Shown here piece by piece: positions 11,183 through 38,039 of a DNA stretch of 64,000 nucleotides. Numbering within the stretch: position 1 is the first letter of the stretch; each line of letters begins with the position of its first letter. The notes beneath the pieces are model-generated. The model did no database searches and was not told the DNA's origin. It worked only from the letters and a program-made list of their open reading frames with translations. The position numbers and the translations under genes are program-made. Location: NCBI GenBank assembly GCA_026874595.1, contig CM049313.1, positions 67,820,659 to 67,884,658 on the forward strand. Direction: 5' to 3'. The DNA is from Sipunculus nudus. Its lineage: Eukaryota; Annelida; Sipuncula; Golfingiida; Sipunculidae.

Positions 11183-11211
11183 CGGTGGCTGATTTAGGAC
11201 ACAGGAAAACA

Positions 11212-11362
11212 ATATTAATCTCGAGATCTTGAGATAATATTTCGGGATCACGACATAAAATTTCACCAAATAAAATTACTGCAGAAAAAAAATATTTATC
11301 TCGAGATCTCGAGATGTTAAGTCGAGTTCTCGAGACATTATGTCGAGATCTAGACATAAAAT
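11212..11362. repeat. Left array of P3 palindromic units
   Basis: Several imperfect copies of ATCTCGAGATCTCGAGAT (11219-11237, 11297-11316, 11320-11335 and 11340-11356). The central six bases are GAGATC-type, so each copy is self-complementary and rich in CTCGAG and AGATCT. Confidence 0.7.
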
Positions 11363-12395
11363 TCCAATGAAAAAAAAATTAAGTCCACGTGGGCGTTTTA
11401 CGAACCATTCGATGCTTAATTGACGTAAAGCAATACAAAGTAAAAGGGACCGACTTCTATATCTGACGTCTTTCAAATAAACATAATCTATAAGACCTTT
11501 TGTAAAATGAGCAAATCCCACGGGGTAAAGTGGGTGCCTTTTGTTTATATCCACGTGTTTATAACATGGGTCGGGGTGGGGAAGGGGGGGGGGGGGATTG
11601 TGGTGGTGCAAAAATGGCCATCGATCGTTATAGAGAGAATTCAGAGAGTGCAGAGGTCTGTAAATGATAAAATTGCATTGCTTCACATGCTCTAACGAAC
11701 ATCAACTAGGGATCTTTCAATAACCCGGTTACATGTTTTTATCTGTATGTTAACACTGTCTCAAGTGCCTTGTGTACAAGTAGCCTGTAGATAAATGTTC
11801 ATACGTCAAAGTGGCGTTATAAGAACCTTTCCCAGCAAAGATTACCTTCACTTCTTTTATATGTATATGCAAAGTAAGCCGGTATCACACAAATTCTATA
11901 AATCAGGCAGGTGAATAGTGACTTCAAGACCAAACAGAGCATTTTACTGAAGAAAAATCATGATGAGAGATGATCGAAACATATAAACCGTTTATTTATA
12001 AAAAAAAAAATCATATAGTTATAGCTGTAGTGGATTAGTGGATCAATACTCGGGCTTAAGGGGCTGAAGCAACCCCTCCCCCCCAGCTTACCTACCCGGA
12101 AACATAGTAATCATTTTTCGCATATTTACATTTATGATTGTCAAATACATATGCCATCATAAAACAAACCCCCATTTCAATAAACACAATAACTGAAAAA
12201 ATTGTACAAAAAGTGTGTTTATATACCAAGCTCATATCTGTTTGTATTCTTAAAATAATAAAGTACCCACAATACATGCATGCAAACCTAAACATTTCTA
12301 TTTGAGTGATTTCTCAGCTATGGCTTCGAATCCGCCGTTCAGGTAGAATGTTTCAGTTTCTTTAGGCTTTGACATCTTCCTTACTGATATGAATA
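11363..12395. other. Interior of element P3 without genes
   Basis: It holds a poly(G) tract near 11584 and AT-rich sequence. The 136-codon frame across 11276-11686 (minus) runs through the TIR array and the poly(G) tract and is not protein-like. Confidence 0.5.
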
Positions 12396-13551
12396 ATTAG
12401 GGCCCGCTTGACAAGCGGTGCCCTATAGTGATCACCGTGTCAGTCAGTCCTTCCGTCCTTCCATCCATCCGTACTTCCGTCCTTCCGTCAGTGACACTTT
12501 CTTTCGCACACGATAACTCAACAACAACATACTGCAGCTTTCCCAAATTCACAGTAATCATTGGTACCTATAAGGGCTCCAGACCTGTCGAATTACAGAC
12601 TTCAAATATGGCCGCCACAGCCCAATCGCTGATTTTCTTTCACACGCGTTAACTCAAAAACGACCAACTGCAGCTTTCCCAAAATCACAGGGATCATTGG
12701 TACCTATGTTGTCTCCAATTCCATTGAATTATAGACTTGTCGGAATTCAAGTATGGCCGCAACAGCCCAATCGCTGATTTTTTTTTCGCACGTGATAACT
12801 CAACAACAATATACTACAGCTTTCCAAAATCCACTGGGATGTTTGGTACATATGAGGTCTCCAGACCTATTGATTTACAGACCTGTCGGAATTCAAATAT
12901 GGCCGCCCCTGCCCGATCGCTGATTTCCTTCACGCGCGATAATTCAACAACAACCAACTGCAGCTTTCCCGAATTCACAGGAATGATTGGTACCTATGAG
13001 GGCTTCAAACCTATTGAATTACAGACCTGACGGAATTCCAATATGGCCGCCACAGCCCAATTGCTGTTTTTCTTTCATGTGCGATAACTCAACAACAACT
13101 TTCTGCAGCATTCCTAAATTCACAGGGATGCTTGGTACCTGTAAGGGCTCCAGACCTTTTGAATTACAGACCTGTTGGAATTTCAATATGGTTGCCACTG
13201 TCCAATTGCTGATTATCCATCATGCGTGATAACTAAACAACAACATACATCAGTTTTTCCAAATTTACAGGGATCATTGGTCCTTATGAGGGCTCATGAC
13301 CTATTGAATTACAGACTGGCTCAAATCAAATATAGCTAACAGACTACATTCGGTGATTTTCTATTGCACACATTTTTTCAGACATATCTTCTTTAATCTA
13401 GTATGTTTTTATCCATTATGCATATTGATAAAAACCTGTTTCTGTTAGTGATATTTTTCAAATTTAACTTATTTTTTCACACATATGTAAACTTGTCCAG
13501 CACTAGCAGAAACGCGGGGCCCTCTTAGGACCATTGTCCGACCACATCTAG
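12396..13551 (+). mobile_element. Helitron-like element with 145 bp satellite
   Basis: It begins with a hairpin, AGGGCCCGCTTGACAAGCGG and then TGCCC (12399-12423). A leader of repeated CCGTCCTTCC words follows (12445-12490), then a satellite core. Near the 3' end are GCGGGGCCCT (13514-13523, the inverted copy of the 5' AGGGCCCGC), a hairpin GGAC-CATT-GTCC (13528-13539) and CTAG|T (13548-13552). The exact 5' TC was not found. The layout matches the elements at 5.8, 53.0 and 59.8 kb. Confidence 0.65.
12505..13320. repeat. About 145 bp satellite array, 6 units
   Basis: The CAGCTTTCC word recurs at about 12534, 12670, 12816, 12960, 13105 and 13250, spacing 136-146 bp. Units hold CGATAACTCAACAACAAC, a GGTACCTATGAGGG-like block, GAATTACAGACCTG, and AATATGGCCGCCACAGCCCA. 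Open frames at 12428-13229 are this repeat translated. Confidence 0.9.
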
Positions 13552-13754
13552 TTAAATATTGAATTTTAAATTGAACTTCTCTTCACCTCGCCTTATCTTA
13601 TGGGAAATACAAACTTGATTGATTTAAATGAATTATATTGTATTATCGTTCAGTATAGATGGTCTTTGTTTTTATAATTGCAGTAGTAAGCATTCTTAAC
13701 GTATACTGTCCCTTTATTGTTACTTTGCGTTATGTCAATTCAGCATCCAATGGT

Positions 13755-13862
13755 ATAATATCTCGAGATCTCGACTTAAGATCTAGAGATCTCGATTGAA
13801 TTAATTTTTTCCTGCAGCAAAATAGTTTTTTTTGGTGAAAATTTATGTCGAGATCTCGAGAT
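13755..13862. repeat. Right array of P3 palindromic units
   Basis: TATCTCGAGATCTCGAC (13760-13776), AGATCTAGAGATCTCGA, and ATGTCGAGATCTCGAGATG (13845-13863), in inverted arrangement relative to the left array. Confidence 0.7.
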
Positions 13863-13884
13863 GTCCTATATCAGCCACCGTAAT

Positions 13885-36000: not shown

Positions 36001-36616
36001 TAGCTTAAGCCCTCATTTGGACAAGAATGTCTGTGGCCTGTTTTATATCGAGCGTAGATGCAGCTTAAATTGTATTTCGTTGTATGTGTGTTTGCGCCGA
36101 ATGCTTTGAGGTAAATTTCAGCAGTTTTCAATGCGTTTGTTCACCGTTTCATTGCGTTGGTTCAACTAGCCCATTTTTATTTGTTCATGGAAAACTGTAT
36201 TGAGTTTGTTTTAGGGTAAGGGTGATATTAACCCTTGTGTACCAAACATGAATTAAACTGAAACACTTGTTTGTATTTTACCTTCCCAGAAAATCATATT
36301 TTTTAGGACTAGGGTTGGGGTCATTTAATTTCGGGTATACCGAACAGGGTAAACAACATGTCGGTTTGTGTTATGTGTCAAGGGAGAAGCTTACAACAAA
36401 AGGTCTCAGCCATGCCACTTCATTATGACTGGGGGGGGGGGAGGGGTTGAGGAGACCTTTTTACGAGAACTTTGCTCATTCTTCCCCTTTACATTTTTCT
36501 TTCTACAATAAAAATTCAGTTATGTATTCATAGGCGGCGAGACCCCCCCCCCAACATAATGATGGGTATAATAACATCCACTCTATTATTATTGGGTATT
36601 TGCACCCTCACACACA

Positions 36617-36705
36617 TATATATATTATGTATATATATATATATATATTTATATATATATATATATTTATATATATATATATATATATATATATATATAT
36701 ATATC
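36617..36705. repeat. (TA)n microsatellite
   Basis: About 88 bp of TA with TTTATA interruptions, inside element P2. Confidence 0.95.
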
Positions 36706-37026
36706 CTCTTCTGCTCAGTACTTGGAGTACCATATATACAGGGCCGCAGACTCCGGGATTTGCGGTGAAGAAAATTGATATTCTGTGTGAAAATTAATCC
36801 ATTGCCAGAAAAATAACTAATAATCTCCCTACAAGGAGGTACTGTTTTACTTAATAAGCATTGACCAATAAAATGCACCAGAATGCAGTAGTACCCATAC
36901 AGTTTTTCAAAATTTTCAAAACCTTGGGAGGGTGAGACCCCCTCTAAACCCCCCCCCGGTCGGGGATTACCCCATCAAATCCCCCCCCCCCCCCTGCCAT
37001 TTGTTTCAGGCTACGGCCCATATTTA

Positions 37027-37191
37027 TAAATATATATATATATATATATATATATATATATATATATATATATATAAATAATAATATATATATATATAAT
37101 ATATATATAATATATATATAATATATATGTATATATAATTTATATATAATATATATACTAGTATATATATATATATATATATATATATATT
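37027..37191. repeat. Complex (TA)n array
   Basis: About 165 bp of TA with repeated AATATATATATAAT and CTAG interruptions. Poly(C) runs sit just before (36979-36993) and after (37296-37305). Confidence 0.95.
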
Positions 37192-37498
37192 CTATTTGGG
37201 TATACTATTTGGCCCCAATGAAAATTTGGTTTCGCCGCCAATGGTAATTTATATTGTGAACATTTATTATGAAAAATATTTTACCCGAACTAGACCCCCC
37301 CCCCCTTTCCCCGCTCACACATTCTCCAGACAAACATGGCCGACGAGTGTTGTACGAGTGCCCGTTGTATCATTTCAGGTCCCAGCATATTAAGTCCGCT
37401 CTAAATTCATGCAAATAATTGACCATAGTCTTCATCCAGTGTATAGAAGCATGCCTCAAGGATTTAAGATGTAGGTCTTACTGTATTATCTATCTACA

Positions 37499-37876
37499 TT
37501 TATCTCGTTCCCACGCGATAATTATCGCGTGGCCACGCGATAGTATCGCGTGGGAACGAGATAATTATCGCGTGGCCACGAGATACTAACGCGTGGGAAC
37601 GAGATAATTATCGCGTGGGAACGAGATAATAATCGCGTTGGAACGAGATAATTATCGCGTGGCCACGAGATACTATCGCGTGGAAACGAGATAATTATCG
37701 CGTGGCCACGAGATACCGTCAGATACTGACGGCTGGGAACGAGATACTAACGCGTTGGAACGAGATAATTATCGCGTGGCCACGAGATACTAACGCGAGG
37801 GAACGAGATAATTATCGCGTGGCCACGAGATACTAACGCGTGGGAACGAGATACTATCTCGTGGGAACGAGATAAA
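37499..37876 (-). repeat. 21-22 bp palindromic array, right (P2)
   Basis: About 17 units of the same family as 35752-36000, in opposite orientation, with CGTGGCCACG and GTGGGAACGAG cores alternating. CGTGGCCACG is itself a perfect 10 bp palindrome. One unit (near 37718-37735) is rearranged (CGTCAGATACTGACG). Confidence 0.95.
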
Positions 37877-38039
37877 AATAATTTTGTGCATGTCCTATAC
37901 GAGCCACCGTATTCATGGCAAATTAGATGAACATGTTTTTTTTTGTAGTAAGGACCTCGGGAAGAATTATATATGTTATAAACATACGCATGCGAAATGA
38001 AAACAAATATTTCCTTGAAATGTCACATTTTTTTTTAAG

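Follow-up and report, generated by a model that had tools for sequence, protein, structure and literature searches.

The window analyzed here, a 64-kb stretch (64,000 nucleotides) of the genome of Sipunculus nudus (contig CM049313.1 of assembly GCA_026874595.1), contains three transposable elements, E1, E2, and E3, with arrays of short palindromic repeats (iterons) at both ends. We favor the view that these elements are non-autonomous copies of three cut-and-paste families of the IS3EU type, which are probably mobilized in trans by family-specific DDE transposases coded elsewhere, with the iterons as putative transposase sites. The features directly seen on which this view is built are the TACGG..CCGTA ends, the 6-bp duplications, the mirror arrays, the coding loci with matching ends and arrays, and the location of the array between the element end and the start codon. 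The sequence-only reading of the window had proposed a single transposon class, which is supported, and coding members with matching arrays were found; it had also taken the class to be undescribed, which does not stand, since E1, E2, and E3 match the known IS3EU superfamily in its published ends and target duplications.

Iteron arrays of E1, E2, and E3

Matches to TATCTCG-N6-CGAGATA with up to three mismatches number 51 in the window, against a mean of 1.76 and a maximum of 4 in 100 shuffles, which bears out the earlier description of three elements (at 11.2, 20.4, and 35.7 kb) with mirror-oriented iteron arrays. The six end arrays hold 48 of the 51 matches; the remaining three lie at 8455, 20875 (within E2), and 26458. 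Each element carries its arrays as an inverted pair just inside both ends, with left plus right unit counts of 5+3 in E1, 10+5 in E2, and 11+17 in E3 (unit positions listed by hand, read from the element end inwards).

E1 (11181..13882, no strand assigned) is a non-autonomous, IS3EU-like element with the left end TTCGGTGGCTGATTTAGGACA, in which the TA is altered, and the right end TACGGTGGCTGATATAGGACA; its flanks match at only 3/6 bases, which leaves the 6-bp duplication unclear. Its left iterons, on the plus strand, form two clusters, units 1-2 (11217..11257; centers AGATCT and GGATCA) and units 3-5 (11297..11358; center AGATCT/AGTTCT), and the right side, on the minus strand, has two units with AGATCT center, one of them degenerate (13759..13799), and one outermost unit (13844..13863). 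E2 (20379..23913, no strand assigned), likewise non-autonomous and IS3EU-like, has TACGGAAGCGTATTGCTG ends and long inverted arms that give it a foldback shape, and is flanked by GTAACC (20373..20378) and GCAACC (23914..23919), which agree at 5/6 bases. The E2 left array (20425..20633, plus strand; 10 units) and right array (23764..23867, minus strand, mirror orientation; 5 units) have TACGTA centers and a 21-bp pitch. E3 (35715..37911, no strand assigned; non-autonomous, IS3EU-like, TACGGTGGCTCGTATAGGACAT ends) lies between exact TTCATG target duplications (35709..35714 and 37912..37917). With TTCCCA and TGGCCA centers, its left array (35753..35987, plus strand) holds 11 units at a 21/22-bp pitch, and its right array (37501..37874, minus strand, mirror orientation) holds 17 units at a 21/22-bp pitch with one 31-bp step, the innermost unit being inverted.

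The unit is a 20-bp near-palindrome whose half-sites match at a mean of 7.7/10 positions, compared with 2.6 in shuffled units. The pitch is 21 bp in E2 and inside the E1 clusters and alternates between 21 and 22 bp in E3, because its unit types A (TTCCCA) and B (TGGCCA) tend to alternate (steps in 42 arrays of 21 copies: AB 134, BA 102, AA 108, and BB 19). Between elements, the centers differ at 61–98% of positions and the outer bases at 19–28%, as expected from the proposal that outer bases are conserved and centers are not. The units are not fully symmetric: the constant part in E2 and E3 is the outward half, TATCTCG, and both the center and the inward half vary. Per position, TATCTCG is kept at 87–99% over 418 E3 units and 92–99% over 380 E2 units, values that partly reflect selection, the units having been picked by their outward half with at most two mismatches under a loose scoring scheme (at most three mismatches over 12 fixed positions, no more than two in the outward half). 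Of the four E1/E3 ends, three carry the terminus noted as common to two of the elements, CGGTGGCTSRTATAGGACAT, without mismatch, and the E1 left end carries it with two mismatches; the true element ends take in the flanking TA (TACGG..).

In the 1.43-Gb genome as a whole, the unit pattern has 959 exact matches and a less strict pattern for tandem pairs has 3001, while the reversed-pattern controls have none. Searches of viral contigs with the one-unit and tandem-pair patterns gave 0, 1, and 0 stretches, the single match (L001) being a lone unit; the tandem-pair pattern had no match in bacterial genome contigs, and six iteron strings had none in the open literature searched.

The alignment of the two E2 arms extends over ~0.8 kb and resumes for ~180 bp close to the loop, as in foldback-type long inverted repeats with tandem repeats. 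An apparent nested element resembling a miniature inverted-repeat transposable element (ends GCTGTGTTTCCATGTAT.., window 21605-22003, limits set by eye) occupies part of the left arm and accounts in part for the asymmetry of the arms. A lone unit-like palindrome with the center AGCAAG lies at 20875-20894, ~240 bp inward of the E2 left array; of the 380 E2-family units scored, 14 have this center. E1 contains a 145-bp satellite-like array of 4.9 copies at 12601-13316.

Ends, target duplications, and genomic copies

Genome-wide, the E2-type end occurs at 122 places per strand, and the 20-bp E3-type end pattern at 146 and 156 places on the two strands. Among the matches listed, an exact mirror partner within 10 kb accompanies 48/100 E2 ends and 58/100 E3 ends (hand count), giving at least 24 E2 and at least 29 E3 inverted pairs, so that the ends often come in inverted pairs; unpaired ends may have a mutated or lost partner. 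We fetched 20 of the 24 E2 pairs and 20 of the 29 E3 pairs, which with the window copy make 21 of each. Because they were retrieved with exact end patterns that include the CGG.. bases, the identity of these bases among the copies is a result of selection.

Outside TACGG..CCGTA, the 6-bp duplication is exact in 14/21 E2 copies, matches at 5/6 bases in five, and fails in two; for E3 the corresponding numbers are 13/21, three, and five. E1 has exact duplications in 3/4 copies (the fetched copies L046-L048), the fourth being the window copy with its 3/6 match. In five copies of this comparison (L006, L007, L011, L013, and L021), more than one end was a candidate and one had to be chosen. For L011 and L013 we took the end giving a duplication, whereas L006 and L021 were kept with 2/6 and 3/6 matches, respectively. 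Pairing flanks from different copies as a control yielded 0/420 in E2 and 0/420 in E3, and no E2 or E3 copy has an exact duplication of 3-5 or 7-10 bp (2-bp matches occur in 3 and 2 copies). TACGG..CCGTA termini are present in nearly all E1, E2, and E3 copies, the exceptions, at one end each, being L029, L039, L047, and the window E1, and a TACGG-type terminus is also found at the single ends read of the coding families F4, F5, and F6 (see below).

The arms of E2 copies are 98% identical over the end 46 bp (16/21 copies) and 83% identical in their inner parts (14 copies); the search pattern itself fixed 24 of these 46 bases, but not the bases after them, which are also largely alike. Within E2 and E3, the sequence-only reading's picture of centers diversified per element, through homogenization of each copy, did not hold up. 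The center is fixed per family: TACGTA occupies 307 of 380 units in the 21 E2 copies, and TTCCCA or TGGCCA 365 of 418 units in the 21 E3 copies. Unit mismatches are about as frequent within arms as elsewhere, with averages in E2 of 1.78 within arms, 1.87 between the arms of a copy, and 1.89 between copies, and in E3 of 2.99, 2.99, and 2.97, respectively.

Among the fetched E1 copies, each end of L047 and L048 carries two units; L046 carries two units at its right end, and at its left end one intact and one degenerate unit. L046, an 8.4-kb copy with an exact duplication, also contains a fragment of a TGCGCA-type array at 8700-8820. Long E2 copies were considered as coding copies and rejected, no transposase-type frame having been found in them. 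L006 (~2000-4900) and L010 (~2100-5200) have ~3 kb of interior in common, devoid of a long open frame and missing from the other copies compared. The E2-family copy L011 has long open frames at 2681-7590 (864, 418, and 290 amino acids) that resemble a nested retrotransposon of the non-long-terminal-repeat type.

Transposase loci and their arrays

The domain PF24764 (rva_4, an IS3/IS481-type DDE domain), which we take to be the IS3EU transposase core, has 40 matches in the Sipunculus genome and none in 14 control genomes. We read 30 of these 40 loci and sorted them into seven families, E1, E2, E3, F4, F5, F6, and F7. In the ~1.5 kb upstream of the catalytic core, 26 of the 30 loci carry exactly one of six iteron types and four carry none. 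E1-type coding loci have their own AGATC units in 5/7 cases and E2-type loci their own TACGTA units in 2/2, both iteron types having been known before the coding loci were scored. The other two E1-type loci, L065 and L066, carry TGCGCA units of an F5 element that is apparently inserted in the E1 iteron array (at 2761-2945 in L065); two C2 loci look similar. Three of the four loci that have no units in this stretch are of the E3 type and the fourth is L059. Next to one of the E3-type loci, L052, the stretch L080 shows, in this order, an E3 end, an array of 17 TTCCCA/TGGCCA units, and exon 1 of the transposase; in another, L051, the core is ~2.2 kb away from an exact E3 end.

Further iteron centers are TGCGCA in both F4 and F5, which have different transposases, CCCGGG in F6, and AGGGAA in F7; among the matches listed, the F4-F7 arrays keep a 21-bp pitch throughout. 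The order end, array, ATG was read in six families (E1, E2, E3, F4, F5, and F6), and in 2/2 F6 coding copies a mirror array follows 8.3 kb further on, with the transposase in between. A candidate E3 coding element has its left end at C1:9055806 and its right end at C1:9085026 (L080, L052, and L002). Since both ends carry the duplication GTATAT, the data suggest a 29.2-kb coding E3 element, a candidate with an AT-rich flank and ~23 kb of unread interior.

All seven proteins tested match PF24764 above its cut-off, and the five compared with NCBIfam all match IS481 or IS3, far under the curated cut-offs. The first two catalytic D residues are 59 apart in all seven families, and the distance from the second D to the E is 38-40 residues in six, the F4 frame stopping before the E. 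Identity between families is 44–64% in the core and 35–50% in the N-terminal helix-turn-helix stretch, and no fork is strongly supported in a tree built from the seven cores. Within E1, E2, and E3, the coding copies are 96.6–99.6% alike in long aligned pieces, among those listed, which suggests a recent spread of these three coding families. Mutually similar open frames are found further downstream in L062 (2586-2915) and L081 (1656-1979) and are probably joined to the first exon. A sequence search of the PDB with one transposase returned no match.

Model for iteron function and alternatives

In the most likely mechanism, the N-terminal helix-turn-helix of the transposase would bind each near-palindromic unit as a dimer, and the 21-bp pitch, corresponding to two helical turns, would place successive dimers on one face of the DNA. 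The array could in this way load many transposase molecules beside the cleavage site, in register, while family-specific centers would hold each transposase to its own elements. In coding copies the array also lies over the likely promoter and may limit transposase expression. The transposase's own N-terminal domain would be the simplest candidate for the iteron binder. More tentatively, and short of an expectation, the seven or more coexisting IS3EU families might use the 21-bp palindromic iterons as private addresses, in which pitch and half-site frame are kept and the sequence is changed, each read by the helix-turn-helix of its own transposase and each array acting also as an operator; such a series of families would amount to a specificity code made by nature, and E3 may have as its coding form a giant element of 29 kb that contains additional genes.

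Several results weigh against transposase binding as the role of the iterons, or limit the support for it. The N-terminal stretch is helix-turn-helix-like by sub-threshold Pfam matches only. The iteron types of F4-F7 agree in 17/18 loci, which amounts to consistency only, because the types were defined from the same loci. The coding copies were each read in part, and the stretches fetched toward the far ends of L081 and L082 did not reach them. Although each family has its own transposase, the similarity of the units does not follow that of the proteins, so that the suggested tracking of transposase specificity is not borne out. The Mantel correlation between iteron and core similarity is -0.386 (seven families; 4694/5040 permutations reach it) and that between iteron and helix-turn-helix similarity is -0.151 (six families; 457/720 permutations), with unit consensuses set by eye from the arrays. 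We reject on this negative correlation the idea that iteron similarity follows transposase similarity; the outcome is weak because there are only seven families, yet it lends no support to gradual tracking. F4 and F5, in addition, have the TGCGCA center in common at a helix-turn-helix identity of 47%. Finally, two units per end suffice in E1 copies and E2 ends hold 1 to 17, so long arrays are not obligatory.

Among the alternatives, the one that survives best, although we consider it unlikely, is that the arrays are targets not of the transposase but of a separate protein, element-encoded or from the host, that regulates or de-silences the element; TnpA on En/Spm is a parallel. Such a protein would fit the position of the arrays upstream of the gene, their richness in CpG (observed/expected 2.0–3.8, compared with 0.87 for the window), and the room for more genes in the candidate 29.2-kb E3 coding element, and, according to passages of PMC5735166, VANC-type motifs are likewise tandemly multiplied and different between families. 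However, the arrays are mirrored at both ends and usually start 38-47 bp from the tip (base 47 is the usual start of the first unit in E2, and base 38-39 in E3), as loading of transposase predicts, and no second gene was identified in the read part of the large elements, most of whose interior is unread.

It is less probable still, and in our judgment doubtful, that the arrays have no function and are merely palindromes prone to slippage that have multiplied passively within the ends. The widely variable number of units (1-19 per end among copies) and the E3 arrays, which are shuffled mosaics of two unit types, are what such amplification would leave behind, whereas the same pitch near the gene in seven coding families with different array sequences, and the constancy of the TATCTCG half, in part a product of selection, argue for a function. 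That the elements belong instead to a superfamily that duplicates TA, such as Tc1/mariner or the PHIS group, is scarcely credible: although the ends are TA-flanked on both sides in 21/21 E2 and 19/21 E3 copies and one transposase has a sub-threshold match to the Tc3 helix-turn-helix, flanks paired at 4, 5, 7, or 8 bp agree at 26–38% of bases compared with 82–90% at 6 bp, rva_4 and, weakly, IS481/IS3 are the matches of the catalytic domain, and a Tc1/mariner element with a TA-only duplication is rejected because the TA lies on the inner side of a 6-bp duplication.

If the iterons are transposase sites, the seven families would offer a natural test case for the way in which transposases and their end sites diverge and become private, and for the way in which non-autonomous copies stay bound to one coding family. 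The array model could account, in addition, for dispersed palindromic minisatellite arrays in genomes of this kind. IS3EU itself is a little-studied group of eukaryotic transposons, named in 35 papers of the open literature searched and in most of these just once or twice.

Relation to known transposon systems

The elements described here resemble IS3EU (with GingerRoot) in their 6-bp duplications, TAYGG..CCRTA ends, and IS3/IS481-like DDE transposase, as set out in passages of PMC10045372 and PMC12730594; of these, PMC12730594 gives the 6-bp duplications and the TAYGG..CCRTA ends, and PMC10045372 gives TA..TA ends with duplications of usually 6 bp. Fungal members, according to the same passages, have further genes (PMC10045372, PMC12730594). 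The terms 'subterminal' and 'iteron' are absent from the main texts of PMC10045372 and PMC12730594 on IS3EU, 'subterminal' is absent from PMC10853768, which names IS3EU, and the passages of PMC10045372, PMC12730594, PMC8268682, and PMC10853768 at hand describe no subterminal iteron arrays in IS3EU. A search of the open literature, with Repbase outside its scope, gave no publication joining IS3EU and 'subterminal' among the matches listed; an earlier description may exist, because subscription journals are mostly missing from this literature and Repbase lay outside the search. Similar ideas are already known for Galileo, Tetris, VANDAL/VANC, and hAT ends. Arrays related to these iterons may have been seen before as satellites, since PMC8268682 labels two oyster satellite DNAs, with 690- and 129-bp units, as IS3EU and lists another, without assignment, whose unit is 21 bp long.

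In Drosophila, Galileo (P superfamily) and Tetris (foldback) also have tandem repeats within their terminal inverted repeats, and passages on Tetris state that the Galileo repeats of D. buzzatii contain extra transposase binding sites and that Tetris repeats are mostly not clustered by array but are clustered in 2/3 complete elements (PMC4079207, PMC4168063). In contrast to the 21-bp palindromes found here, the Galileo and Tetris units are ~140-220 bp long. Tetris has 8-10 bp duplications (the affinity to Mutator being stated for Tetris), whereas the duplications here are of 6 bp only, so that our elements differ from this foldback type. VANDAL is a Mutator-like element, and the VANC motif has nine bases and is non-palindromic. 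As in our families, the motif of VANDAL/VANC in Arabidopsis is short, family-specific, tandemly multiplied, and evolving with its own protein, according to passages of PMC5735166; unlike a transposase, however, VANC is an anti-silencing protein. In hAT elements (Hermes), the N-terminal domain of the transposase binds short subterminal repeats, one pair of which is quasi-palindromic, as passages of PMC10368747 describe. The hAT motifs nevertheless differ from the present arrays in being short and scattered, their binding domain is a zinc-finger BED domain, and hAT is another superfamily.

Other features of the window

A Pfam search with ten open frames of the window returned no family at E up to 0.1. 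Outside the three elements, the window holds other large tandem arrays, with units of 148 bp at 6772-7784, 180 bp at 53129-54514, and 334 bp at 60290-61476.

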